From: Methanoregula boonei 6A8
Lineage (GTDB): Archaea; Halobacteriota; Methanomicrobia; Methanomicrobiales; Methanospirillaceae
Length of the DNA: 64,000 bases
Direction: 5' to 3'
Assembly (NCBI RefSeq): GCF_000017625.1
Contig: NC_009712.1
Span: forward strand, 2,046,001-2,110,000
Each line of letters begins with the position of its first letter. The stretch's first letter is position 1. The notes under the pieces are model-generated. The model did no database searches. It was given only the letters and a program-made list of their open reading frames with translations, and was not told the origin of the DNA. Position numbers and translations under genes: made by a program. Positions 12,520 through 28,531 of the stretch are shown piece by piece.

Positions 12520-14088
<1,569 letters not shown>

Positions 14089-14094
14089 TATTCC

Positions 14095-14102
14095 TTTTTT
14101 TT
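14095..14102 (+). terminator. T8 tract after O-acetylhomoserine sulfhydrylase
   Basis: A run of eight T follows the stop codon at once, the form archaeal RNA polymerase uses for termination. The next gene starts 186 bp later; the intervening segment shows no other feature I can support. Confidence 0.45.
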
Positions 14103-14287
14103 GGCAGTTTCCCCGGGCAAACGGCCCTGGTGCAGCATCAGCATCCCCCAAAGGAGCGCTTGTCCTGGTGGGGGGGAATGCGGCAGGAATTGCCGCCAGC
14201 GGTGGTAATAACCCCGGCCGGTTCGTAGGGGATCAGGCAGAACCTACCCGGGACCAGGTAAACGCCCCGGGAATTCTCGATGCTATC

Positions 14288-15499
14288 ATGACTCCCGAAC
14301 CATCGCCCGTACGGGGGATCCGTACAACTGCAATCCATGCCGGGGAGTCCCCTGACCCGGTGACCGGGGCCTCGGCCCCATCGATTGTGATGTCAACTGC
14401 GTTTGTCGCCGATGCCGGCGTTTCGTTCTCGGCCGAGGACTTTGGTGACAACACCCCGTACCTGTATACCCGGTGGAAGAACCCCACGGTCGACCAGCTC
14501 GAAAAGAAGCTTGCCGCACTTGAAGGAGCCGGGGGATCCGTTGCATTTGCAAGCGGAATGGCGGCCGTGACGGCACTTCTCCTCTACACCCTCAGGGCCG
14601 GGGACCACCTGGTCATCAGCGATATCTCGTATGCCGCAACAGCGGAGATGACCAATGAGCTGCTCCCCCGGCTTGGTATCGGCGTAACCAAGGTGGACAT
14701 GTCCGACCCGGCCAATGTGAAAGCCGCTTTGAGGCCCAATACGAAACTTGTCTATGCCGAATCGCCCGCAAACCCGATTCTCAGGCTTACCGATCTCGAA
14801 GCGGTTGGCCGGATCGCCCACGAAAAAGGGGCCCGCTTTGCGGTGGATGCCACCTTTGCCTCGCCGATCGGGATCCAACCCACGCAGCTGGGGGCAGACT
14901 TTGTGCTCCACTCCCTGACCAAGTACATCAATGGCCACGGCGACGCAATCGGTGGGGCGGTAATCGGCAGCGCACAGGACATGGCCGCAATAAAAAAGGA
15001 GATCGCAATCCGTACCGGCGGGATCTTAAGCCCGTTTAATGCCTGGCTGATCCAGCGGGGCGCAGCCACGCTCCCCCTGCGGATGAGGGCTCACGAGGAA
15101 GGTGCCCATGCGGTTGCGCAGTTCCTTGAGGAGCATCCGAAGGTGACCCGGGTAATCTATCCCGGCCTTCCCTCGCACCCCCAGTATGCGCTTGCACAAA
15201 AACAGCTCAAAAATACCTCCGGCATGATCACGTTCCAGGTAAAAGACGGCCTTGCCGCTGCACCGGTGATCGCAAAACGGCTCTCGGTGATCCACTATGC
15301 GGTCTCGCTTGGCCACCAGAGGAGCCTGGTCTTCTACCTGCCCACGCGCGATATGCTCCGGACCTCGTTTAAGCTCACCCCGGCGCAGGAACAGTCCTTC
15401 CGGGCCTTTGCCGGGGACGGGATCTTCCGGCTCTCGGTGGGCCTTGAGGACCCGGCCGATCTTATCGCCGACCTCGCCCATGCCCTGGACGGGATCTGA
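14288..15499 (+). CDS. Cystathionine gamma-lyase / methionine gamma-lyase-like PLP enzyme
   Basis: Gamma-family PLP enzyme of 403 residues counted from ATG 14288 (MTPEPSPVRGIRTT). The longer open frame upstream has no domain similarity and was not used. Motifs: TAIHAGESPDPVTGA, TRWKNPTVDQLE, AESPANPILRL and VLHSLTKYINGHGDAIGG with the PLP lysine. It resembles methionine gamma-lyase and cystathionine gamma-lyase-type archaeal proteins more than OAH sulfhydrylase; I cannot fix the substrate. A methionine gamma-lyase would release methanethiol from methionine, the reverse of what the upstream gene can do. Confidence 0.82.
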   Translation: MTPEPSPVRGIRTTAIHAGESPDPVTGASAPSIVMSTAFVADAGVSFSAEDFGDNTPYLYTRWKNPTVDQLEKKLAALEGAGGSVAFASGMAAVTALLLYTLRAGDHLVISDISYAATAEMTNELLPRLGIGVTKVDMSDPANVKAALRPNTKLVYAESPANPILRLTDLEAVGRIAHEKGARFAVDATFASPIGIQPTQLGADFVLHSLTKYINGHGDAIGGAVIGSAQDMAAIKKEIAIRTGGILSPFNAWLIQRGAATLPLRMRAHEEGAHAVAQFLEEHPKVTRVIYPGLPSHPQYALAQKQLKNTSGMITFQVKDGLAAAPVIAKRLSVIHYAVSLGHQRSLVFYLPTRDMLRTSFKLTPAQEQSFRAFAGDGIFRLSVGLEDPADLIADLAHALDGI

Positions 15500-15504
15500 T
15501 CTTT

Positions 15505-16644
15505 TTATCCGAGGTTTTCGAGGCGCCGGCACGCTTCACGGAGAGTCTCTTCCTTTTTGGAGAAGGTAAACCGGATCTTCGTCTCTCCACCCTCATGGCA
15601 GAATGAACTGCCCGGCACGGCAGCAACACCGACGGATTCGATCAGGTGGCGGGCGAACGCGACGTCGGTCATCCCAAATCCCGCAATATCCGTGAAGATA
15701 TAGTACGCACCATCAGGGAGCTGGCAGGAGAATCCCGCTTTCCTGAGACCATCGTAAAGGATCTTCCGCCGGCGGTCATAGTCACGGGCAAGCTCATTGT
15801 AATAGGTGGAGGGAAGGTCGAGTGCGGCAACCGCGGCATGCTGGAGGGGTGCCGGTGCCCCGACCGTGAGGAAATCATGGATCTTACGGATGCGTGCGGT
15901 CAGCCGGGCATCGGCAATCGTGTACCCCACCCGCCAGCCGGTCACGCTGTAGGTCTTGGAGAGGCTGTTGATGGTGACCGTGCGGTCTTCCATGCCGGCA
16001 AGCGACCCGATCGAGACATGGCGGTGGCCGTCATAGAGGATGTGCTCGTAAATCTCGTCGGTGATCGCGATCACGTCGTGCTCGGCACAGAGGTCGGCGA
16101 CAAACTGCAGTTCGTTTCTTGAAAAGACCTTTCCGGTCGGGTTGTTGGGGGTATTGATAATGACCGCCCGGGTCTTTTTCGAGAACGCTGCTTTCCAGAT
16201 CTCCTCGTCAAGCGGCCCGTTACCGAGCGGGACATAGCGGGGTACGGCCCCGGAGATAACCGCGTCGGGCCCGTAGTTCTCGTAGAAGGGTTCGGGCACG
16301 ATCACCTCGTCACCCGGGTTTACGAGTGCGATCATGGATGCCATCATCGCTTCGGTGGAGCCGCAGGTGACCGTGATCTCCGTCTCCGGGTCTGCATCGA
16401 TCCCGTTGTAGCCCTTCACCTTCCGTGCAATCGCCTGCCGGAGATCCTGCGCTCCCCAGGTAATCGCGTACTGGTTGTAGTCACCATTGATCGCTTCACA
16501 GGCGGCCTTTTTGAGCTCGTCCGGGCAGGGGAAATCGGGGAACCCCTGGGCAAGGTTTATCGCCTTGTGGGCGATGGCAAGACGGGTCATCTCCCGGATC
16601 ACGGATTCGGTAAAGGAGTCCGCACGGGAAGAGGAAAGCATCAT
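15505..16644 (-). CDS. Class I aminotransferase, methionine/kynurenine aminotransferase-like
   Basis: PLP aminotransferase, 380 residues from the ATG at 16644 (MMLSSSRADSF). INLAQGFPDFPCPDELKKA matches the YbdL/KAT group, which accepts methionine and aromatic amino acids. NTPNNPTGKV, TDEIYEHILYDG and the PLP lysine in SLSKTYSVTGWRVGY are all present. It converges on the preceding gene (5-bp gap) and lies downstream of the first nitrogenase-like K/D pair on the same strand, so it may belong to that operon. Methionine or 4-methylthio-2-oxobutanoate as substrate is an inference from subfamily and setting. Confidence 0.85.
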   Translation of the reverse strand: MMLSSSRADSFTESVIREMTRLAIAHKAINLAQGFPDFPCPDELKKAACEAINGDYNQYAITWGAQDLRQAIARKVKGYNGIDADPETEITVTCGSTEAMMASMIALVNPGDEVIVPEPFYENYGPDAVISGAVPRYVPLGNGPLDEEIWKAAFSKKTRAVIINTPNNPTGKVFSRNELQFVADLCAEHDVIAITDEIYEHILYDGHRHVSIGSLAGMEDRTVTINSLSKTYSVTGWRVGYTIADARLTARIRKIHDFLTVGAPAPLQHAAVAALDLPSTYYNELARDYDRRRKILYDGLRKAGFSCQLPDGAYYIFTDIAGFGMTDVAFARHLIESVGVAAVPGSSFCHEGGETKIRFTFSKKEETLREACRRLENLG

Positions 16645-16811
16645 GGTACCATCTGGGGCAGCAAAGAGGATAATCTCATCTTTTTCTTTCGGGATCCGAT
16701 GAACACGGGGACCGGAAAAAACGGCCCGGAACACCGCCAGGGGATCAAAAAGGGGAGGCGGGAAGTGTGTCTGCACTTACGTAAACAGAGGTGTGACATC
16801 CATTGCCTTTC

Positions 16812-18170
16812 TCAGAGCGGCCCGGTGAATTTTGTAATAATGTCTTCCATGAGCACGATGCCGCCACGGTACCCGGCATACGAGTGGTCGATAATCATCC
16901 GGTCGTTTATCGGGAACGAGACACTCAGGTGCAGCGCATCGTTAAACTCATCGGTAATGTACTTTTCAAGCGAGCTTGCGAGCAGGACTAAAAAACTCCT
17001 GCCCTTTAACAGCTGCCGGATCTTGTGCGTGTCCGACTCAAAGAAGATCTCGGGTTTCACCACGCAGTCGATGTGCTCATAAAGCTCGCGCAGGATCTCC
17101 GGGCGCTTTTCTTCCGGAGGATTATCCGTGATAATGGTAATATCCGGCAGGTACCCAACCTCGTTTGCGATATATTTCGTGATGCCGATTGCCGTAGCGC
17201 TGTCGCCGACGACTGCGGTGTACGAGTGTGGCATCCCGATAATCAGGGCATCTCCGAAATACTCCACGTTACGGTATGCCCTGCGCTCTTCAGCTGCGAC
17301 AACCTCCTTTACTTTTTTCTCCGGGATGCCAAGTTTTTCTGCCACGATGCCAAGCAGGGCCGTTGTCTGCTGGGGACCAACAGGTACGCTCGGGAAGGTG
17401 ACGTACGGCGTCCCAAACTTCTCCTCAAGCCTTTCTGCTATGCTGTGGCCAAGCCAGGGGTTAAGAACGAGGTTTAACTCGGCAGCCGGGATCCGTTTTA
17501 ATTTTTCCGGGCCGTCAAACTCGGTAAAGATCGTGTTTACCTCAACACCGATCTTGGCAAAGGTGTTTTTGAGTATCTCCAGATCCCCTTTCCAGAACAC
17601 GTGCTGGAATGGTACGACCCCGAGAATGTTGATGGTGCGCTTCTTCTTTTTTATGGGCACCAGGTACTGGTCGATCACGGCATTTAAGAATAATTCGTAC
17701 CCCTTGTACGTATTCCCGGAAAATCCCGGCGCGTTCACGTAAATGATGGGTATCCGGTTCTTCGTCTCCTCTTTGAATTCCCTGACCACGGATTCTACAT
17801 CGTCCCCGATAAGTGACGGTACGCAGCCGGTTATTACCACGAACAGGCTGCCATCCATCAGTTCAGTTGTAGATCTGATGAGTTTTCGCAGCCGGTCCTC
17901 TCCACCGAAGATAACATGCTGCTCCACCAGGGAAGTACAGGGTGTGCCGGTGCCGCCCTGCACACCCGGTGCGCTCTCGCCCGAGGTGTAGAACTGGCCG
18001 AAGAGCTGGGCGACCCCGCAGCCCCCTCCGGAATGCAGGACAGGTACCGCTCCATACACACCCAGCGTCGATGCATAGGCACCGGCAAGCGAACACGAAT
18101 ACCGGGGTGCCTCCTGGATATCATGGATATCGTCGCCTGATGATTCATTTTCAATGCCCGTTTCCGCCAT
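16812..18170 (-). CDS. Nitrogenase-like beta (K) subunit, copy 1
   Basis: NifK-type partner of the D subunit encoded just upstream (15-bp gap). 452 residues. It keeps P-cluster-type cysteines in PRYSCSLAGAY, GGGCGVAQLFGQF and ITGCVPSLIGDD, the NifK arrangement, plus a GTPCTSLVEQHVIFGG segment also found in the other two copies. LGVVPFQHVFWKGDLE is another shared block. Shorter than NifK (about 520) because the N-terminal extension is missing. Similarity to copies 2 and 3 is high throughout. Likely forms a D2K2 heterotetramer holding the interface Fe-S cluster; substrate unknown, methylthio-alkane reductase-type chemistry proposed. Confidence 0.85.
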   Translation of the reverse strand: MAETGIENESSGDDIHDIQEAPRYSCSLAGAYASTLGVYGAVPVLHSGGGCGVAQLFGQFYTSGESAPGVQGGTGTPCTSLVEQHVIFGGEDRLRKLIRSTTELMDGSLFVVITGCVPSLIGDDVESVVREFKEETKNRIPIIYVNAPGFSGNTYKGYELFLNAVIDQYLVPIKKKKRTINILGVVPFQHVFWKGDLEILKNTFAKIGVEVNTIFTEFDGPEKLKRIPAAELNLVLNPWLGHSIAERLEEKFGTPYVTFPSVPVGPQQTTALLGIVAEKLGIPEKKVKEVVAAEERRAYRNVEYFGDALIIGMPHSYTAVVGDSATAIGITKYIANEVGYLPDITIITDNPPEEKRPEILRELYEHIDCVVKPEIFFESDTHKIRQLLKGRSFLVLLASSLEKYITDEFNDALHLSVSFPINDRMIIDHSYAGYRGGIVLMEDIITKFTGPL

Positions 18171-18185
18171 TTTGCTCCTCCCTCT

Positions 18186-19724
18186 TTAGACAGCGTCCTT
18201 TTCGAGGTAGTAAAGCGGGTTGGGCTGCCTGAAGTACCAGTCCTTGTACCCGTACTGGGTCTTTTCGAGCATAGTTTTTTGCCAAGAGATACTTTTCATC
18301 CCCTGGAGCAGGAAGCTGCCATAGGCCACGGCTCCCGCATATGCGGTCTGCTGGCTCCACTTGAGATTATCGCACCGCACTGCATGGGTACGGGTAGCGC
18401 CTTTGTTCCGCTTGTAGGCACTTCCCTGGAACGGGCAGGTCAGCGTAATATCCGGGTTGAGCATTCTTGTGATATGAGCCTGTTCTGCAGCCTGGAAGGT
18501 ATTGACCAGGATGTTGAAATCCCCGACCTGGTCAACGACTTTTTCAAGGTCTTCCAGGATCAGGTTGTCATAATCCTGGGACAGGGCTGCTGATGACTTA
18601 ATGCCCAGTTCATCGAAGTACGGCAGTTGGGATAAGAGCCGGCCCTGGCCAAGGGCACCAAGCATCTCAATCTTCTTGCCGTTGCCCTTGAAGTTTTGGA
18701 GTTCTTTTCGGATAGCATCCATGCGGGGACCCCATTTCCTGTGTTCCTCTTCGATGACCGTCTCGGCCTCCCGTTCTTTTCCGGTGTACTCCGCGATCTT
18801 ACGGAGCCATTCGTCCGTATTCTGAAAACCTACCGGAGACGGGTACATGAAATAGGGTACGCCGTATTCCTGCTCCAGGCCCCGGGAGATATAGTCCGTA
18901 TAGGATGCACAGAGGGGAGCTGTTACCGCCGCCTCGGAGAGATCTTCGAGTTGCTGCACGCTTGCAAACTCCGGGACAAAATTCGGCCGCAGTCCCATTC
19001 TTTTTAAAATGCCGGTCATCTCCCTGCGATCCTGCCAGGTGTAGGAGAGCATGCTTGCGATATTGATTAAGTCATCCTGTTTCTTTTCAGGCTTTTTGAC
19101 CAGGTACTTTAATACGCCGTGCCAGAATGCATCGTAACCGGTTTGTACGAGTCTCGACCGGATGCCTTCGCAGTGGACCGGTACAATCTTTGCCTTGATG
19201 TGAGGTTGCATAGCGCTGACAGCGCCTTCAATGTCTTCTCCAATAATACCGGATGCACAGGAAGTGAGCACAAAGATTGCCCGGGGCTTATACCGCTCTT
19301 CGGCCACTCGTATGGCTTTTTTGAGTTTGTCACCGGCACCGTAGACAATGTCCTTCTCGGTAATTCCCGTTGTCAGCCAGTGGAGGTCAAAGGGAGGCCT
19401 GCCATCTGCTGCGGGTATATTGCGGAAGAGTTCCCTGTACCCAAGAGCTGACGCCGAGCAACCTACCGGCGCATGGAAAATGAGTACGGCATCCCGTATT
19501 GTGCTGATACGGATGGCAAGGTAAAAATTGAGGGCACACCCTGCTGATTGCTGGAATTTTCGCTCGCTCAATTTGAGATTGCCGGCTTTTGCATCTTTAA
19601 TTAACTGGGTAACCGGGCCATAGTACACGTTGATACCGTTGGCCCGATCCTCCCGGTTGGGGCAGGTCTTCTCTTCAAGATTTAGTTTTTTATCGCAGAT
19701 GTGGACGTCATTTTTTGATTGCAT
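18186..19724 (-). CDS. Nitrogenase-like alpha (D) subunit, copy 1
   Basis: NifD-type catalytic subunit, 512 residues. P-cluster-type cysteines are in SAGCALNFYL (C63), HAPVGCSASALGYRE (C89) and LTSCASGIIGEDIEG (C156). A cysteine in TAPLCASYTDYISRGLEQEY aligns with the cofactor-binding Cys275 of NifD, and a histidine in TRTHAVR with His442, so a metal cofactor site appears intact. CfbD of F430 synthesis and BchN would not pair with such a K subunit. First gene of the minus-strand operon D1-K1(-aminotransferase), driven by the two-box promoter at 19843-19908. Function as methylthio-alkane reductase-like enzyme is inferred. Confidence 0.85.
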   Translation of the reverse strand: MQSKNDVHICDKKLNLEEKTCPNREDRANGINVYYGPVTQLIKDAKAGNLKLSERKFQQSAGCALNFYLAIRISTIRDAVLIFHAPVGCSASALGYRELFRNIPAADGRPPFDLHWLTTGITEKDIVYGAGDKLKKAIRVAEERYKPRAIFVLTSCASGIIGEDIEGAVSAMQPHIKAKIVPVHCEGIRSRLVQTGYDAFWHGVLKYLVKKPEKKQDDLINIASMLSYTWQDRREMTGILKRMGLRPNFVPEFASVQQLEDLSEAAVTAPLCASYTDYISRGLEQEYGVPYFMYPSPVGFQNTDEWLRKIAEYTGKEREAETVIEEEHRKWGPRMDAIRKELQNFKGNGKKIEMLGALGQGRLLSQLPYFDELGIKSSAALSQDYDNLILEDLEKVVDQVGDFNILVNTFQAAEQAHITRMLNPDITLTCPFQGSAYKRNKGATRTHAVRCDNLKWSQQTAYAGAVAYGSFLLQGMKSISWQKTMLEKTQYGYKDWYFRQPNPLYYLEKDAV

Positions 19725-19842
19725 AAGATCTCCTCTTTTTTTACGTCAGCAGACTGTACAATTCGGGCGCCTTTGGCCGGGTTGCGGTACATTTTTTAGC
19801 CTGCTCTTGATGCGTTACTGTCGTCTTTTATGGGGGTGAAGT

Positions 19843-19908
19843 CATAAATACACAATGAAAAAAGCAATAATGGGGGGCATTATTCGGTTACCGGGAATAT
19901 CGCGGCAA
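19843..19908 (-). promoter_or_regulatory. Two-box promoter of the D1-K1 operon
   Basis: Minus strand: box 1 TTGCCGCGATATT begins at 19908, box 2 TTGCTT at 19867 (41 bp apart) and TATTTATG at 19850 (17 bp further). The predicted leader to the ATG at 19724 is about 100 nt. Confidence 0.65.
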
Positions 19909-20435
19909 TATCAGGTATTTTGATCCGGAAAAATGCCTTGCGCGATCTCATAATGACCTCTGCGACCGGAATATTTTCAGGAAACAGGGTACCAAAGGGA
20001 AGGCAACTGAGTATATTCTGGTCAAACGAATCCCGACATTGCTCCGATAAAGTACCCGGGTCTGCCTGACGTTAGGGTACATCCCCAAACCTCCCTATAT
20101 ATTAGTGCATTTCCCTCCATCCGGCCCCGGGTTTTGCCTTCCAAAAGCGTACAATAGCGTTTTTTTACATCCTCACAAAATCCCCGGTTTGCCAAAAAAT
20201 GCACGTAGGGGGTGATCCCGGAAATAGTGTGTAAAAGTGCACCGGTTTTTGCACCGGACTCCGGGAAAATGGTGTCCGGAGGGGTAATCCGGGGCCATAA
20301 CGGGCCCGAATTTTGGGGGTACTACTAGGGGGATCAGGCACGATCCGGTCATGGTGACCCTGATTAATGGCAGTGCACCCGGTGGCGGGTAGTTTTTTTG
20401 ATGAACGGGTACTGGCTGAAATGGTCATCGGTTCT

Positions 20436-20850
20436 CCGGAATCTTCAGCTCGTGACACACTCTTTAAAAAAAATCTTCAGCAGCTGAGTGACCGATTTTC
20501 CGGAATCTTCAGCTCGTGACACACTCTTTAAAAAAAATCCTCAGCTGCTGAGTGACCGATTTTCCGGAATCTTCAGCTCGTGACCCACTCTTTAAAAAAA
20601 ATCCTCAGCAGCTGATTGACCAATTTTCCGGAATCTTCAGTTCGTGATCCACTCTTTAAAAAAAATCATCAGCAGCTGAGTGACCGATTTTCCGGAATCT
20701 TCAGCTCGTGACACACTCTTTAAAAAAAATCCTCAGCTGCTGAGTGACCGATTTTCCGGAATCTTCAGCTCATGACACACTCTTTAAAAAAAATCATCAG
20801 CCGCTAAGTGACCGATTTTCCGGAATCTTCAGCTCATGACACACTCTTTT
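20436..20850 (-). repeat. Seven-unit 64-bp tandem repeat with a hairpin-T8 in each unit
   Basis: Units begin with CCGGAATCTTCAGCT at 20436, 20500, 20564, 20628, 20692, 20756 and 20820, always exactly 64 bp apart; the last is partial. Each unit is itself two diverged 32-bp halves (for example GGAATCTTCAGCTCGTGAC against AAAATCCTCAGCTGCTGAG). On the minus strand six units read as a short hairpin (CTCAG-CAG-CTGAG or variants) followed by GATTTTTTTT. The array starts about 120 bp after the stop of the minus-strand permease and lies before the D1-K1 promoter, so serial termination is a plausible role. There are no unique spacers, so it is not CRISPR. The remainder of 19909-20435 shows no gene. Confidence 0.85.
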
Positions 20851-20972
20851 TTTTAGTTGGATAACGGGCCGGGCCAAAAAAGAGGAGGTGTGGGACGGGC
20901 GCGAACAAACGCCCGTGGCCCCACCCTCACATTACCCCGTTTGAGAGTGTCCGGTATTTTTATGAAAATCTA

Positions 20973-22445
20973 TTACTTTGGCCCGTTTCCCCCATTAGCC
21001 CGGATAACCCGGAACTCGGTGTGTACTTTTTCGATCTCGCTTGTGATACGGGAAGAGAGCTGAGGGTGGCGTCTTTTGGAGATCAGGAACCACGCCCCTC
21101 CCGCAATGAGCCAGCCGACAAAGATATAGATAAACCAGCTGTACGGGGCCCCGGAGGCATTGTTCGAATAGATGCTTCCCGCGATGGCTGCCGCAAGCAG
21201 CAGAATCGTGACCGCCGCAAGGGCGATGTCCGGGCGTTTGAGCTCTTTTTCCCTGAGCAGGTACAGCGGTGCGGCGATAGCGACCAGTGCATAGGCAAAG
21301 ACAAATCCATAGGTCCCCACGGTGCCTACCCACCCGTATATGTCAAAGAGTCCGCCGCCGTACGCGATAAGGATGAACGGGATTACAGATGCTGCGATGA
21401 CCGAGGCAGTGATGGCAATATGCGGGGTCCTGTTGGATTCATGTGCATTGCCCACCCGGTTATCCACCACGCCGTGCTGTCCCATCAGGTACAGTACCCG
21501 CGACCCGGCGTTGATGCATGCCAGAAAGCAGGCCCAGAAACTGATGAGTGCGCCAATCGAGATCAGCGGGCCAAATGCGGCAATCCCGTTTGCGTTGGCA
21601 ATGTCGGTCAGGGGTGCAGCAGCATTGTTCAGCGCCGTGGAACTTCCCTGGAACGAAAAGACCTCGACGTAGGAGAGAAGGATAAAGAAGACACCGACAA
21701 CGGCCGTGCTCGTGATCACAGCCCGTGGGATCGTCTTTAAGGGATCCTTGGCTTCATGCCCAAGAGAGGTTGCACTCTCAAAGCCACAGAAGGAGAAGAA
21801 GGCAAGAACCAGGCCGATTCCCCAGCTTGAGAGCGATACTCCCTGCAGGGAGGTCTGGGCCGGGTCGATGGAAAAGCCGTGATTGACAATGACGATAATG
21901 GCAAGGAGTGTTATCAGCGTCATCGAGATTATTTCGCACGTAAGCATCACCCGGGTTGAGAGCCGGATGTCCTTTACCGCGATATACCAGGCAATCGCGG
22001 CACCGATAATTCCCAGGATAATCGCCTGAAGGATCGGTGGGAAGGCAGCGCCGGAATAGCCAATCAGGACATTTGCGTAATTGATATACCCGCACAGTAC
22101 TGCGGATGCCGTGAGCAGGTATGCAAGCACCAGGCCCCAGCCGGTAATCACACCGGCATCGGTGCCTAATCCTTTGACGATAAAGGAGTACAGGTTCCCG
22201 GGCGTGGCAGATCGCTTAGTGAACTGGTTGATGCTAAAGGACACTAAGAGGAAGACCACCAGTCCGATAACGTATGCAAGCCAGGTTCCGTTACCGGCAA
22301 ATCCGAATACCAGAGGGATAACGAGGGCCGGCGTCGCGCTGGGCGCGATAGCGGCAATGGACTGGCCCAGTACTTCAAACGAGGACAGGTACGATCGTTT
22401 TAGTCCGTTTGTTTTGTTTGACTCTGCAGTTGTAGTATCACTCAT
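20973..22445 (-). CDS. APC-family amino acid permease
   Basis: Integral membrane transporter of the amino acid-polyamine-organocation superfamily, 490 residues from ATG 22445 (MSDTTTAESNKTNG). Twelve hydrophobic segments are visible. The first, SYLSSFEVLGQSIAAIAPSATPALVIPLVFG, fits the APC core, and FSFCGFESATSLGHEAKDP is the usual loop after TM6. The substrate is not readable from sequence. Its two-box promoter (22592-22656), shared with the nitrogenase-like genes and O-acetylhomoserine sulfhydrylase, points to a sulfur amino acid or related compound. The longer open frame upstream includes the promoter and was rejected. Confidence 0.88.
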   Translation of the reverse strand: MSDTTTAESNKTNGLKRSYLSSFEVLGQSIAAIAPSATPALVIPLVFGFAGNGTWLAYVIGLVVFLLVSFSINQFTKRSATPGNLYSFIVKGLGTDAGVITGWGLVLAYLLTASAVLCGYINYANVLIGYSGAAFPPILQAIILGIIGAAIAWYIAVKDIRLSTRVMLTCEIISMTLITLLAIIVIVNHGFSIDPAQTSLQGVSLSSWGIGLVLAFFSFCGFESATSLGHEAKDPLKTIPRAVITSTAVVGVFFILLSYVEVFSFQGSSTALNNAAAPLTDIANANGIAAFGPLISIGALISFWACFLACINAGSRVLYLMGQHGVVDNRVGNAHESNRTPHIAITASVIAASVIPFILIAYGGGLFDIYGWVGTVGTYGFVFAYALVAIAAPLYLLREKELKRPDIALAAVTILLLAAAIAGSIYSNNASGAPYSWFIYIFVGWLIAGGAWFLISKRRHPQLSSRITSEIEKVHTEFRVIRANGGNGPK

Positions 22446-22591
22446 TATGATTCTCCATTGTTGGATGGGTTTGGATATTCCCCGGATTCGGGAATAATGG
22501 GGGGACACATGCGCAGTTCTCAGGCAATGGCATTCCTTGAAAAAGCGGTGACCGGCAACCCAATTCCCTGCAGGTAATCTGACAGGCGTTT

Positions 22592-22656
22592 TAATAATAA
22601 CTGATAAATTCGCAATATTTGGGGAGATAATCCGAAATATGTTCAATTACAGGCAA
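22592..22656 (-). promoter_or_regulatory. Two-box promoter of the APC permease
   Basis: Minus strand: box 1 TTGCCTGTAA begins at 22656, box 2 TTGCGAATTTATC at 22615 (41 bp apart), then the A/T-rich TATTATTA starting at 22599, 16 bp after box 2. Box 1 is the most divergent of the set (T instead of G after TTGCC). Confidence 0.55.
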
Positions 22657-22691
22657 ATTTCTCCGCAGTGATCCGGATTTCCTGCAAAATC

Positions 22692-23180
22692 TTATTCCGG
22701 GTTCCTGGTATCGGTGAGGGGCGGAGGCAGTGATCGTTTACCCTGTGCGCCCAGCCGTTTTTTGAAGCCCCGGTACGAATCGGGGGCGTACCCGAGCGAG
22801 CGGTAGAACGGGACTGCATCGGTCCGCTCAAGCTCAGATACAAAAATGATGTAATTGCAGTTGCGCGAGACCGCGTATGACTCGATCTCGCGTATCAGTG
22901 CAGAACCTATCCCCTGCTGACGGAATTCGCGGTCAACGATCACGTCCTCAATGACCAAAAACGGGCGGCATTCACCATAAAGCTCTTCGCAGATGATCCC
23001 CATGAGAGACCCGGCTATCTCATCGTCCACCTCAGCGACAAGAAAAACGTAATCCGGATCATTCCTGAGCCGCGCAAAGGTTTCCTGCATCCGCACAAGG
23101 GAAGACTCCTCGTTCCAGAACTGCATGTACAGCCGGGCCAGGGCAGGAAGATCTTCTTTTTGCAGTCGTCTGATGATCAT
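22692..23180 (-). CDS. GNAT-family N-acetyltransferase
   Basis: 162-residue GNAT enzyme from ATG 23180 (MIIRRLQKEDLPAL). The acetyl-CoA motif A is VDREFRQQGIGSALI (Q/R-x-x-G-x-G/A) and the closing motif B is PFYRSLGYAPDSYRGF. It lies 64 bp downstream of the radical SAM gene on the same strand and may be cotranscribed with it. The acyl acceptor cannot be told. Confidence 0.8.
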   Translation of the reverse strand: MIIRRLQKEDLPALARLYMQFWNEESSLVRMQETFARLRNDPDYVFLVAEVDDEIAGSLMGIICEELYGECRPFLVIEDVIVDREFRQQGIGSALIREIESYAVSRNCNYIIFVSELERTDAVPFYRSLGYAPDSYRGFKKRLGAQGKRSLPPPLTDTRNPE

Positions 23181-23244
23181 GGGTTTGTATAAAGGACGTG
23201 ACAGGGTGCTCTGAAACGGGCGGAGAAGAACCACCGGTGTGCGG

Positions 23245-24378
23245 TCACACAACTCCTTTTTCCCGGAGTGCATCGTGCAACAGGGAGTTCCCATCGCAGA
23301 GGTAGCAGTGGTTCCGGGTGCCTGCAGGGACCTTATGCTCACGGACAATCTCCGCCGCCTCGCGGTTAGTCTGTGCGTACCATTCTGCAAATGGGGCGCG
23401 ATGGCCGTACAATTTCGAGCCGGGGTTCGGGGACCAGACAAACGGGATTACGTTTGCTCCCAGTTCCGAGATAGCATTCACGCCGGCAAGGAAGTTCTCT
23501 TTTGGTTCCAGGCCCAGAACAAAGATCGTATACACATTGCCTTCACCGAAGACCTCCACTGCTTTTTTTATGTTTTCCACAAACTCATCATGCGATGTGC
23601 CCGCAGCCTTCCCCGGGCAGATTGCCTCGTAGTATTTTTTGTCCCAGACTTCCATGGCAAAGCAGAGTGACCCAATCCCGGTCTCGTAGAACTTCTGGAT
23701 CGCTTCTCCTTTGGCCGGCGAGGGAAGAAGGGTTCCTGGCACCGAATCAAAGCCCGTGTGCTCCCGGATCGAGGATAGGATCTCCGAAACGATCTCAATC
23801 TCCCGCTTCAGGGAGATGCACCCACCGGTGAGGTTGACGTGGTTGGTGTCGCCTTCCGCCCATGCAGCTTTCACAACTTCTCCCACTTCAACCGGGTCCT
23901 TTCTTCTCATGACCGAGTTGTACACATCTGAGGTGGAGACCAGGTTGCAGAAGGCGCACTGTTGTTTTTTGGCAAAATGGGAGCAGTAGTTCTGGTAGCA
24001 GAAAAAGAGGCAGTCCTGCCCGCCGAGCTGCCCGATCTTTATCATGTCGTTTCCCTTTGTGGTCTTTTCTGTGTAATACCGGGGCCGCCGCAGCCATTTC
24101 ACCTCGCAGATCCGCTGCTCGTTATGGTGCAGGTGCAGCCTGCCATCCTCGGGCACCACGTGGTACGGTGAACGCGAATTCTTGCGGTACTGCACCACGG
24201 TCCCGTCGGGGAGGGTGAAGTCATCGGGGAGTTTCTGCTCGGTGTGGTTTTCAAAATCCCAGCCAAAGAGACCGTGGTTCTGCTCTTTGTACCGGGTCCC
24301 GACCTCTGCAACGCTTGCAGGATCTGACCGTATCCCCTCGGTGACAAGGGCCGCCTTTAGTAACAGGTAATCTTCCAT
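23245..24378 (-). CDS. Radical SAM protein with spaced cluster motif
   Basis: 377 residues from ATG 24378 (MEDYLLLKAALV), chosen because GGAG precedes it by 8 nt. The SAM-cluster cysteines are probably in YCSHFAKKQQCAFCN, a C-x8-C-x2-C arrangement rather than the classical C-x3-C-x2-C, with two more cysteines just before (CLFFCYQNYC). HVNLTGGCISLKREIE is the SAM-binding GGE-like segment, and HCYLCDGNSLLHDAL near the end may bind a further cluster. It lies between two nitrogenase-like D/K pairs and downstream of the AnfO-like gene on the same strand, so cofactor assembly or substrate handling is plausible. It does not look like canonical NifB, which has the C-x3-C-x2-C motif. Confidence 0.75.
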   Translation of the reverse strand: MEDYLLLKAALVTEGIRSDPASVAEVGTRYKEQNHGLFGWDFENHTEQKLPDDFTLPDGTVVQYRKNSRSPYHVVPEDGRLHLHHNEQRICEVKWLRRPRYYTEKTTKGNDMIKIGQLGGQDCLFFCYQNYCSHFAKKQQCAFCNLVSTSDVYNSVMRRKDPVEVGEVVKAAWAEGDTNHVNLTGGCISLKREIEIVSEILSSIREHTGFDSVPGTLLPSPAKGEAIQKFYETGIGSLCFAMEVWDKKYYEAICPGKAAGTSHDEFVENIKKAVEVFGEGNVYTIFVLGLEPKENFLAGVNAISELGANVIPFVWSPNPGSKLYGHRAPFAEWYAQTNREAAEIVREHKVPAGTRNHCYLCDGNSLLHDALREKGVV

Positions 24379-24396
24379 GGGATGCTCTCCGGATCG

Positions 24397-24437
24397 TATC
24401 AGAATATCTGGGAAATGACGGGCATAATATTCTGATA
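24397..24437. promoter_or_regulatory. 10-bp inverted repeat just upstream of the radical SAM gene
   Basis: TATCAGAATA (24397-24406) and TATTCTGATA (24428-24437) are perfect inverted arms with a 21-nt spacer, 19 bp before the start codon at 24378. It could form a leader hairpin over the ribosome site or be an operator. The 320-bp gap up to 24698 otherwise shows no feature I can support. Confidence 0.4.
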
Positions 24438-24698
24438 TCTGGGCAATCCTTGCCCGTAGTCTCCGTCTTTTGCACACATACTTCCGCTCAAACCCAACAT
24501 TTTGCCGGGTCTTTGTAGTCAGTACATTGCAGAGGGATGCAGGCAGGAATGCCCGGGTTCGATACAGAAAAAAAGATCGGGGTTCCCCCGGAGTTCACGA
24601 TCAGAATGGTGCAACAATGACGCTTGGGAATATCCTCAAGCAGGATGCAACCCGGTCCTGGTAATTACGTAACAACTCCACAAATGGAATGAACCACC

Positions 24699-25340
24699 TT
24701 ATTTTGACTTTTTCAGCACCACCCTGACCTCGTGGGGAGCATGGTGTCTGGTCTCAATCATAAGCCCAAGGAAATCTGCCTCGACTCCAATCCAGGGTGG
24801 CAGATGTTCGCAGAATAGTTCAAGCTCGGTAAAACGGGAACTGCGGATAAACTGCTGGAGCACCTGCTTGCTGCTCACACCGGAACGTTTTCTCTGGATC
24901 TCTGTAATCGACACCGTGAATTTACCGGGTGCCGTTTCAAGCGGGACGGGTATACCGGCGTTACCGGAATCCGGCCGGGGCTGGGGACACGCTTCCTGTT
25001 TGTCGTTATCTTTTGCTTCCAGGCAGACGGAGTCGAGGAATTCTTCCGGTTGACCTGCAACTTCCCACACATGGCAGCGGGCTCGTGCAAGTTCGGAGTA
25101 AACAGCTCCGTTTGCCGACTGTGCAACAAAGGTACGGCAATCCCCAAGAAAGGTAACAAGCTCCGCTACTTTCCGGTGCAGTCCCTGCAATCCTTTTCCG
25201 GGTTCAAGAGCGAAAGGAAACGTCCTTTGGCTCTGCCACACCCCATGGCTGCGCTGAAAAATAACGATTGTCCCCGGACCGGTGAGGGGAACAGTCCGGC
25301 CATTCTCCCCGATAATTACCGCAATCTCTGAAATGCCCAT
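24699..25340 (-). CDS. AnfO-like nitrogenase accessory protein
   Basis: 213 residues. The N-terminal half (IAVIIGENGRTVPLTGPGTI, then QRTFPFALEPGKGLQGLHRKV, LGDCRTFVA and VWEVAGQPEEFLDSV) and the C-terminal half (PGKFTVSITEIQ, GVSSKQVLQQFI, FTELELFCEHLPPWI) match the two blocks of AnfO, the protein encoded with Fe-only nitrogenase. In this copy the two halves are joined by a low-complexity linker (about 115-135). It lies 91 bp downstream of K2 on the same strand. AnfO is thought to assist Fe-only nitrogenase function, so its presence supports a real metallocluster enzyme here. Assignment rests on recalled family pattern, not a search. Confidence 0.75.
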   Translation of the reverse strand: MGISEIAVIIGENGRTVPLTGPGTIVIFQRSHGVWQSQRTFPFALEPGKGLQGLHRKVAELVTFLGDCRTFVAQSANGAVYSELARARCHVWEVAGQPEEFLDSVCLEAKDNDKQEACPQPRPDSGNAGIPVPLETAPGKFTVSITEIQRKRSGVSSKQVLQQFIRSSRFTELELFCEHLPPWIGVEADFLGLMIETRHHAPHEVRVVLKKSK

Positions 25341-25431
25341 GATACCCTCAGAAGATCATAAGATTCCACGTTGTATCCGTACCGTCATGCATAAAAAAGA
25401 TCGTTATGGGGAGGGGAACTGCTTTCCCTCC

Positions 25432-26784
25432 TCACAGGGGCCCGGCAAATTTGCTCATGAAGTCCTCTGCAAGGAAGAGCCCTCCTTTATACCCGGCATA
25501 GGAGTGCTCCAGGATGAGCCGGTCAAATGAGGGGAATGCCACGGTCAGGGGGATTGCCCCAAATTCGGCAAGGGAGATCGGAGATTCCAGGGAACTCGCA
25601 AACAGGAAGAGTGAATTCCGGTTTTTCAGATTCTGCCTGATACGGTAGGAATCCACCTCAAAGACGATCTCCGGTTTCACCGGTGTTTCGAGGGTCTCGA
25701 GCAGTTCCCTGCGGATGAGATCGCGCTTATCCTCATGGGGATCGTCTGCGATCTGCACGATCTCCGGGAGATACCCGAGTTCGTTTGCCAGGAATTTCGT
25801 GATACTGATTGCGGTACTGCTGTCTGCAACGACCGAGAAATACGCATGGGGCCGGACAAGAGTGAGGATATCCCCCAGGTACTCGGTGAACCGGTATGCC
25901 CGCTTCTCCCGCTCTTCAATAACCTTCTCGACGGTCTTTGCCGGTACCCTTAGTTTCTTACCAACAACACGGAGGAATTCCGAGCTCTGCTTGGGACCGA
26001 TGGGGACCCCGGGGAATGCAATGAACGGGGTTTTGAACTTCTCCTTGAGTTTCTCTGCGGTTTCGTGCCCTACCCAGGGCGAGAGCACAATATTGTATTC
26101 CGCCGCGGGAATGCTTTTGAGGGCTTCAACGGAATCGAACCGGGTAAAGATGATATTGGGTTTCAGGCCGATTGATTCAAGGAGTTCCCTGATAACGTCC
26201 AGATCTCCTTTCCAGAACAGGTGCTGGTACGGCACTATGCCAAAGATATTGACCTGCCCTTTCACTTTTGTCTGGGGTGTGAGGAACTGGTCAATGAGCG
26301 ATTCAAAAAACAGCTCGTATCCCTGGTAGGAATTTCCTGAGAATCCGGCAGCCTTTATAGAGATGATTGGCACCTTATCACGGAATTCCTTTACCACGGA
26401 TTCAGTGTCATCTCCAATGAGTGAAGGGATACATCCCGAGATTACCGCGTAAAACTGCCCGTTTACGAGTTCAACACTGGATTCTATCAGGTTCCGGAGT
26501 TTCTTCTCCCCACCGAAGATGACATGCTCCTCAATAAGGGAGGAGCAGGGTGTGGAAGTCCCTCCTACCGGGCCTCCGGCATTCTGCCCCCCGCCATAGA
26601 ACTGACCGAAAAGCTGGCCAATTCCGCAACCCGCTCCTGAATGAAGGATCGGAACCGCCCCATACAGACCAACCGCGGTTGAGTACGCTCCCGCAAGGGC
26701 GCAGGAGAACCGCGGAGCTTCCAGGGCATCAGATGCCGGGAGATCCACAGCGGAGGATACTTTTGCTTGTACTGCTTTTGTCAT
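25432..26784 (-). CDS. Nitrogenase-like beta (K) subunit, copy 2
   Basis: 450 residues from ATG 26784 (MTKAVQAKVSS), which overlaps the stop of D2 (ATGA), so translation is coupled. P-cluster-type cysteines are in PRFSCALAGAY, GAGCGIGQLFGQF and ISGCIPSLIGDD; STPCSSLIEEHVIFGG is conserved with copies 1 and 3. NIFGIVPYQHLFWKGDLD matches the block shared by all copies. Copy 2 is the only pair with an AnfO-like gene directly downstream. Likely a D2K2 partner; substrate unknown. Confidence 0.85.
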   Translation of the reverse strand: MTKAVQAKVSSAVDLPASDALEAPRFSCALAGAYSTAVGLYGAVPILHSGAGCGIGQLFGQFYGGGQNAGGPVGGTSTPCSSLIEEHVIFGGEKKLRNLIESSVELVNGQFYAVISGCIPSLIGDDTESVVKEFRDKVPIISIKAAGFSGNSYQGYELFFESLIDQFLTPQTKVKGQVNIFGIVPYQHLFWKGDLDVIRELLESIGLKPNIIFTRFDSVEALKSIPAAEYNIVLSPWVGHETAEKLKEKFKTPFIAFPGVPIGPKQSSEFLRVVGKKLRVPAKTVEKVIEEREKRAYRFTEYLGDILTLVRPHAYFSVVADSSTAISITKFLANELGYLPEIVQIADDPHEDKRDLIRRELLETLETPVKPEIVFEVDSYRIRQNLKNRNSLFLFASSLESPISLAEFGAIPLTVAFPSFDRLILEHSYAGYKGGLFLAEDFMSKFAGPL

Positions 26785-28328
26785 GGCTCTCCATCCTCTT
26801 TTATCAGGTAGTGGAGGGGATCGGGCTGACGGTACCACCAGTCCTTGTAGGTGTTCTCTGTTTTTTCGAGCATGGTCCGCTGGAACGCACTGCTTTTGAG
26901 CGACTGAAGCAGGAAATTCCCAAATGCGATCGCACCTGTGTACCCGCTTTGCCGGCTCCAGGGATCCGGATCGCCCCGGAGTGCGTGAATCCTGGTCATA
27001 CCTTTATCCCGCTTGAACGCTCCTCCCTGGAACGGACAGGTGAGAGCAATATCCGGATCAAGTTTTCTTGTTATGTGTGACTGTTCCGCTGCCTGGAACG
27101 TGTTGACCAGGATATCAAAGTCTCCTACATTTTTGATCAGGTTTTCGAGATCCCCGAGAATCAGGTTATCAAAATCCTGGCACATGGCTGCCGAAGATTT
27201 GAGTCCCAGTTCATCGAAGTACGGGAGCTGGGCAAGAAGCCGCCCCTGGCCGAGTGCGCCAAGCACTTCCACTTTCTTACCGTCGGCTTTAACTTTTGCA
27301 AATTCTTCCTGAATTGCCTTAAGCTTGGGAATCCAGACTTTATGTTCATCCTCGATGAGTTTCTCAATCTCTTTTGATTTCCCGGTATGTTTTCCAATCT
27401 CCCGCAGCCAGGCGTCCGTGTTTGCAATACCCATCGGGGAAGGATAGAGGAAATAGGGGACACCGTATTCCTGTTCAAGTCCCCGGGAGAGGTAATCAGT
27501 GTAGGTCGGGCACAAGGGTGCCGTTACCGCAGCTTCACTGAGCTGTTCCAGCTGCTCGACAGTTGCAAATTCCGGAATAAAATTGACCCGGAGCCCGACT
27601 TTTTCGAGCAATCTCTTGATCTCAAGCCTGTCCTGCCAGGTATACGAAAGCATGCTTGCAACATTGACCAGATCCTTCTGCTTCTTCTGCGGTTTTTTCA
27701 CAAGGTACTTCAGGACCCCATGCCAGAACGCATCGTACCCGGTCTGTACCAGCCGGGATCGCGAACCTTCGCAGTGGACCGGAACTATCCTGGCTTTCAC
27801 TTTTGGCTGAACCTCTGCAACCACTCCTTCAATATCCTCTCCGATGATCCCGGAGGTGCATGAAGTCATAACGAATATGGCCTTGGGATTGTAGCGGCGT
27901 TGTGCCTCAAATATGGCACTCTTGAGTTTTTCGGTTGCGCCATAGACAACATCATTTTCCCGGAGGTTGGTGGTTATCCAGTGGAGATCATATTCTGCCG
28001 GTCGCCCGAGTTCAACCGGAACACCGCGGTACAGTTCCCGGTACCCAAGAGCGGATGAGGAACATCCAACCGGTGCATGGTAAACTACCGCTGCATCGCG
28101 TATCGTTCCCACCCGTACCGTGAGATAGAAGTTGAGCACGCAGCCTGAGGTCTGCTGGAATTTTCGTTCCCGACGCGTAAGGGTTCCTTCACGCGCCTCC
28201 TTTACCAGATCGCTGGCCTTTCCGTACCAGACATTAATCCCATTTGCACGCTGTTCACGGTTCGGGCACGTTGCTTCCTCAAGATTGATCTTGGAATCGA
28301 TAATATGTGGTGATTTATTTTCAGTCAT
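26781..28328 (-). CDS. Nitrogenase-like alpha (D) subunit, copy 2
   Basis: 515 residues from ATG 28328 (MTENKSPHIIDSK), preceded by GAGGTG. The longer frame upstream crosses the promoter and was rejected. Cysteines: TSGCVLNFYL (C63), HAPVGCSSSALGYRE (C89), MTSCTSGIIGEDIEG. Cofactor-type Cys in TAPLCPTYTDYLSRGLEQEY and His in TRIHALRGDP are retained. The protein is closer to copy 3 than to copy 1 in several blocks (RRYNPKAIFV, APLCPTYTDYL). First gene of the minus-strand unit D2-K2-anfO-like, under the two-box promoter at 28469-28531. Confidence 0.85.
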   Translation of the reverse strand: MTENKSPHIIDSKINLEEATCPNREQRANGINVWYGKASDLVKEAREGTLTRRERKFQQTSGCVLNFYLTVRVGTIRDAAVVYHAPVGCSSSALGYRELYRGVPVELGRPAEYDLHWITTNLRENDVVYGATEKLKSAIFEAQRRYNPKAIFVMTSCTSGIIGEDIEGVVAEVQPKVKARIVPVHCEGSRSRLVQTGYDAFWHGVLKYLVKKPQKKQKDLVNVASMLSYTWQDRLEIKRLLEKVGLRVNFIPEFATVEQLEQLSEAAVTAPLCPTYTDYLSRGLEQEYGVPYFLYPSPMGIANTDAWLREIGKHTGKSKEIEKLIEDEHKVWIPKLKAIQEEFAKVKADGKKVEVLGALGQGRLLAQLPYFDELGLKSSAAMCQDFDNLILGDLENLIKNVGDFDILVNTFQAAEQSHITRKLDPDIALTCPFQGGAFKRDKGMTRIHALRGDPDPWSRQSGYTGAIAFGNFLLQSLKSSAFQRTMLEKTENTYKDWWYRQPDPLHYLIKEDGEP

Positions 28329-28468
28329 GTTCGGGCACCTCTTGCTTTTTGAGGATTTCCTGACGGCAGCACGGTCAGCGAACGTGGAGTTCCTGATACC
28401 GTTCTCCCTCCAAGGGCTCTTTGTTTTGTCATGGTGATCTCTCAATTTTTTTATCTGAAGGATAGGTG

Positions 28469-28531
28469 AAATATACAGGGCAATCAGCAAATTTTGATGG
28501 GGATATGTGAAAATTTACAAAGAAGCGGCAA
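28469..28531 (-). promoter_or_regulatory. Two-box promoter of the D2-K2 operon
   Basis: Minus strand: box 1 TTGCCGCTTC begins at 28531, box 2 TTGCTGATTGCCC at 28490 (41 bp apart) and TATATTTC at 28475 (15 bp further). The leader to the ATG at 28328 would be about 120 nt. The segment from 28532 to about 28750 shows no other feature. Confidence 0.65.

Follow-up and report, generated by a model that had tools for sequence, protein, structure and literature searches.

What is a short tandem repeat doing between an amino-acid permease gene and a nitrogenase-like operon in an archaeon? The locus lies in a stretch of 64,000 nucleotides, referred to as the window, from Methanoregula boonei 6A8, whose closed archaeal genome of 2,542,943 bases is designated G000. 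The initial annotation had a tentative answer: a possible serial terminator, in which six hairpin-T8 modules would stop transcripts coming from the permease and insulate the nitrogenase-like D-K operon. The parts of the locus are as follows; R1 is a sequence-only model of the B+A dimer.

18186-19724, minus strand: nitrogenase-component-1-like D gene, its 5' end 711 bp to the left of the array (open reading frame; Pfam PF00148).
20414-20439, plus strand: degenerate partial B half-unit at the left edge of the array, CTGAAATGGTCATCGGTTCTCCGG (sequence; R1 hit from window position 20425).
20435-20855, plus strand: array of 13 half-units of 32 bp, orientation AATC...TTTT (TRF, PWM scan, R1 model hits at G000:C1:2066425-2066854).
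20504-20567, plus strand: 64-bp unit 2, identical to unit 5 at 20696-20759 (pairwise differences 0/64).
20824-20855, plus strand: terminal A half-unit; here the T8 typical of the family lies on the plus strand in place of A8 (sequence, T-run table).
20860-20930, minus strand: the permease's own terminator-like element, a strong GC hairpin (ACGGGCG...CGCCCGT) followed by T6 (RNA fold; similar sequence downstream of the orthologue in the relative G009).
20973-22445, minus strand: amino-acid permease gene, 3' end towards the array (open reading frame; Pfam PF00324/PF13520).

The periodicity is real. TRF reports a tandem array at 20435-20849 with a period of 64, 94% matches, 0% indels and a score of 725, and it counts 6.5 copies rather than the seven units first described. 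Each unit is indeed built from two diverged 32-bp halves, as had been proposed. The A half (AATCTTCAGCTCGTGACACACTCTTTAAAAAA) and the B half (AATCCTCAGCWGCTGAGTGACCGATTTTCCGG) are versions of one unit, and on direct reading they alternate, seven A halves at 20440 + 64k and six B halves at 20472 + 64k, with every step exactly 32 bp. The six complete 64-mers differ pairwise by a mean of only 4 bases and units 2 and 5 not at all; the array has therefore expanded recently by 64-bp duplication. Between 20440 and 20823, and in no other array, the A half has T3A8 in place of T7A4 with the unit length the same, which looks as if an 11-bp A/T tract had flipped.

The hairpins and T-runs of the initial annotation are also there. 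Six units on the minus strand read CTCAG or TCAG, a 3-base loop, CTGA(G) and then T8, but the stems are slight: only 4 bp form in units 1, 3, 4 and 6 (one of them, in unit 6, a G-U pair), and the stubs fold at -0.3 to -4.9 kcal/mol. That their pairing is conserved by selection was not supported. Family units yielded no consensus RNA structure, pairing across the palindrome reaches 85.5% of cells, and 84.7% in shuffles, and covariation shows no excess over shuffled columns (233/500 shuffles). The stable, selected hairpin before a T-run that marks a bacterial-type intrinsic terminator was not found.

Archaea ask for less. Their termination depends on U-tracts of 4 or more, and a hairpin is not strictly needed (PMC8716108). 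The aCPSF1-dependent terminators of Methanococcus maripaludis resemble the arrays in having, on the transcribed strand, runs of 4 to 8 T near a gene's 3' end (PMC8716108). The window array carries its T8 six times, at 64-bp spacing, on the strand transcribed from the upstream permease; the 3' end of that gene lies 124 bp away. Because archaeal RNA polymerase stops at U-tracts, a local stop of permease transcripts at these six tracts is plausible, and the array may act on the minus strand in just this way. A dedicated insulator is another matter. Between the permease and the array lies the gene's own hairpin and T6, at about 20874-20930 (the fold of 20860-20972 comes to -39.3 kcal/mol), which permease transcripts meet first, and the G009 orthologue keeps a T-tract at this place with no array. 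Nor does tract strand track the incoming gene across the family. Array strand and gene strand agree in 6/15 tandem cases (p = 0.61), the very randomness of placement that the initial annotation had named as grounds for abandoning its claim, and the mix of convergent, tandem and divergent settings does not differ significantly from the intergenic background. Unlike archaeal U-tract terminators, the family has its T-runs at a 32-bp phase, on whichever strand with respect to genes, and within a conserved unit and core. A T of 5 or more falls on the array strand in 66/91 family units and on the opposite strand in 4/91; the window member is the reverse, and T8 on the non-array strand occurs only in this member and in recent duplicates. 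Six T8 tracts do face read-through from the permease and may stop some of it, but a serial terminator is an unlikely account of the array, and a terminator role would be at best a local side effect, not what the family seems built for.

The neighborhood (12685-28490) deserves a remark of its own. It holds two nitrogenase-component-1-like D-K pairs on the minus strand, at 16812-19724 and 25432-28490, neither of which reaches any nif, vnf or anf curated cut-off. Near them are an O-acetylhomoserine sulfhydrylase gene (12685-14088) and a methionine-gamma-lyase-like gene (14009-15499), a setting that resembles methylthio-alkane reductase loci.

What, then, is the family? R1 and BLAST searches of the host genome gave 56 matches at E <= 0.01, falling into about 17 clear loci including the window (some 16 further ones) together with weaker remnants. 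The unit is 32 bp long, with a consensus of about AATCYTCAGCWSCYGANCCGNNCWTTTTTNRR, and comes in alternating A and B forms, each with a small palindrome or half-palindrome, TCAGC-N-GCTGA; an array has some 2 to 14 of them, arranged as direct repeats. Each of the 41 arrays examined lies between genes. A Pfam scan of neighboring genes revealed no common function and, among the neighbors scanned, no cas gene and no partition genes; the arrays simply sit beside unrelated genes. A literature search on Methanoregula repeats found no record of this repeat family. The window array belongs to a repeat family restricted to one lineage, whose arrays are scattered between genes and phased with the helix. 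Directly beside the 32-bp arrays there is often another dispersed repeat, GC-rich in sequence (GATGGGGGCTGTCGCCCCCATACCCCCACGAGCGAGG...GGGGCGCCCCCGCGGCGGATCAGG; L020:5888-5950, L022:6300, L023:6160-6200, L030:6040-6110, L085:414-510). A degenerate array (L024:5754-6254) separates a threonyl-tRNA synthetase gene from a prismane/CO-dehydrogenase family gene.

Six loci of the host genome share something more: a core of 64-96 bp (TCCGTCGGARAATNTGATGATTATTYGTGGGT...), described by a second model, R2, and placed mostly between two arms of units. When the five best cored copies are written in 32-bp lines, arms and core fall into one register. Might the cored arrays be non-coding RNA genes, with, for example, a C/D-box-like guide RNA in the core? 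The core has a conserved TGATGA motif and a sub-threshold match to sR20 (17.8 bits, E 0.41), and it was this weak match that put a C/D guide forward as a candidate. We rejected it: the CTGA boxes are not conserved, and complementarity to rRNA is unconvincing. Of four cores, three match the rRNA operon about as often as shuffled sequence or less often; the fourth does so moderately more often (38 guide matches vs 23), with G-U pairs in every match. The core alignment offers 8 pairs only, one of them covarying, Rfam gave no match above its gathering score in the array, and the window member, unlike the cored ones, has no core at all. We regard an RNA gene as very improbable.

The most telling property of the family is its step. 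Among units within 200 bp of each other, neighboring distances are multiples of 32 in 67/73 cases in the host genome and in 40/54 in relatives, the latter figure resting on units chosen by a matrix. A test independent of the unit model, applied to T-runs in ten cored arrays from three genomes, found their phase modulo 32 coherent over whole arrays, cores included (Rayleigh R 0.80-0.98, p 2e-3 to 4e-6). A single T-run phase extends over 300-500 bp and, where there is a conserved core, continues across it. In a wedge model, 32 bp corresponds to 1089-1094 degrees of twist, or 3.02-3.04 turns, and this step of about three helical turns persists across arms and core even as the sequence diverges. 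A constant step despite strong divergence is the best sign of constraint that we have, read against a weak neutral control: the sole measure of indel rate is a small non-coding segment, G003 against G009, itself indel-poor, with 60 substitutions and 3 gaps. The phasing could be partly inherited from tandem duplication. Strong intrinsic curvature we rejected as a general feature: family arrays are modestly curved (z 0.2 to 3.3), and the window array is not curved (z -1.8). Histone phasing was considered too, and the genome's one histone gene is neutral on that reading.

How far does the family extend? Within the genus, clear R1 matches beyond the host genome occur only in G032, G003, G009 and G027, with G004 borderline. 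The first three are the closest relatives, at 95%, 91% and 90% identity in one marker protein, and several array-free genomes are at least as close as G027 (88%). Arrays are thus patchily distributed and missing from most of the genus. At E <= 1e-4, a search of 199 genomes from the order gave array matches only in G000 and G003, and none of the other genera searched has the arrays. The core recurs in G032 and G009 arrays, and a core pattern search of a genome contig collection matched only Methanoregula sp. STF2_46. Phages, plasmids and viral contigs gave no match, on which ground a viral or plasmid origin was rejected.

Where relatives do have arrays, positions are often shared. In G003, G009 and G032, 8/18 arrays lie beside orthologues of genes flanking an array of the host genome, against 12% expected (chance about 5e-4), and relative orientation is the same at 6/8 of these junctions and opposite at 2/8. 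The initial annotation had suggested checking copy number in related strains: the family is present in four of them, and the junction orthologous to the window's has no array in G009. No single array, therefore, is indispensable, being absent from most of the genus and, in the window's case, from that junction. Array-bearing genomes have about 1-1.3 kb between an FKBP-type gene and tRNA-Val; several array-free relatives have about 30-400 bp there and no units. Beside tRNA-Val, the G003 and G009 junction carries inverted unit pairs; between them, a non-coding segment of ~600-700 bp (L081:6400-7440 and L082:6290-7370) is inverted in one genome relative to the other and about 90% identical after flipping.

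The main rival to the explanation we favor is a repeat that does nothing for its host. The arrays may be neutral or selfish, satellite-like or a non-autonomous element, spreading to intergenic sites and growing through slippage or unequal exchange, their fixed positions reflecting common descent only. Unit sequence decays freely in many copies, the spread within the genus is patchy, the tRNA-Val interval is far shorter and unit-free in several relatives, the window has its recent 64-bp duplications, and the intergenic regions are a mosaic with other dispersed repeats. Against drift of this kind, several species keep both the step length and the phase of T-runs across arms and core; inspection by eye turned up neither terminal inverted repeats nor target duplications nor a protein encoded by the element, and the genome has no Y1 (RAYT-type) transposase. 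We consider a drifting repeat possible, if on balance doubtful.

CRISPR arrays have regular spacing of a roughly 30-bp repeat, and so do these; the difference is that here there are no unique spacers and both halves repeat. The REP/BIME/REPIN sequences of bacteria, with their RAYT transposases, are likewise intergenic, dispersed, clustered and often downstream of genes (PMC3733652, PMC3116915, PMC2817692), and the B unit has a short palindrome like theirs. In contrast to their palindromes in alternating orientation, units in the host genome are direct, at 32 bp and about a hundred per genome at most, with inverted pairs at the one G003/G009 junction. The GTAG/CGTC tag was not seen in the array consensus. 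The Y1 transposase domain, PF01797, was not found in the genome by a search that detected its positive controls, and a RAYT-driven REP/BIME was rejected for this reason.

Our best mechanistic guess, to which we would give a probability of about one half, is that the arrays are helically phased platforms, at the level of DNA, for a putative multimeric DNA-binding protein. The features that last (the step, the T-run phase and the palindrome or half-palindrome) would suit such a protein reading the units from one face of the helix, and because of this fit a DNA-level platform seems to us the likeliest reading. Each array would host a nucleoprotein complex for chromosome organization or a similar cis role. 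There is a precedent in layout. In the parC centromere of plasmid R1, iteron arrays surround a core at a spacing of a whole number of helical turns, and cored members of the family likewise have two direct-repeat arms at whole-turn spacing around a core; the coreless window member lacks this arrangement. The likeness is one of DNA layout, and the family differs in being chromosomal and in many copies, with a much longer unit and no partition genes seen beside the arrays. The window copy would be a freshly re-expanded member, enlarged by 64-bp duplications and with its T7A4 turned into T3A8, and the T8 stops now offered to permease transcripts would be a by-product.

A more ambitious version would make this a previously undescribed archaeal chromosomal cis-element: a genome would have at least 17 or so arrays, in each of which 32-bp units would flank a core as arms and a helical nucleoprotein complex would form to organize or segregate the chromosome in one Methanoregula lineage. 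Taken whole, that is improbable, if worth stating. Should the arrays turn out to be merely drifting repeats, they would still be a family of which we found no record, and a warning against reading one copy as a purpose-built terminator. How most archaea organize and segregate their chromosomes is still poorly known, and the discrete, phased arrays of this lineage, with their conserved positions, can serve as bait in the search for an architectural protein that is sequence-specific.
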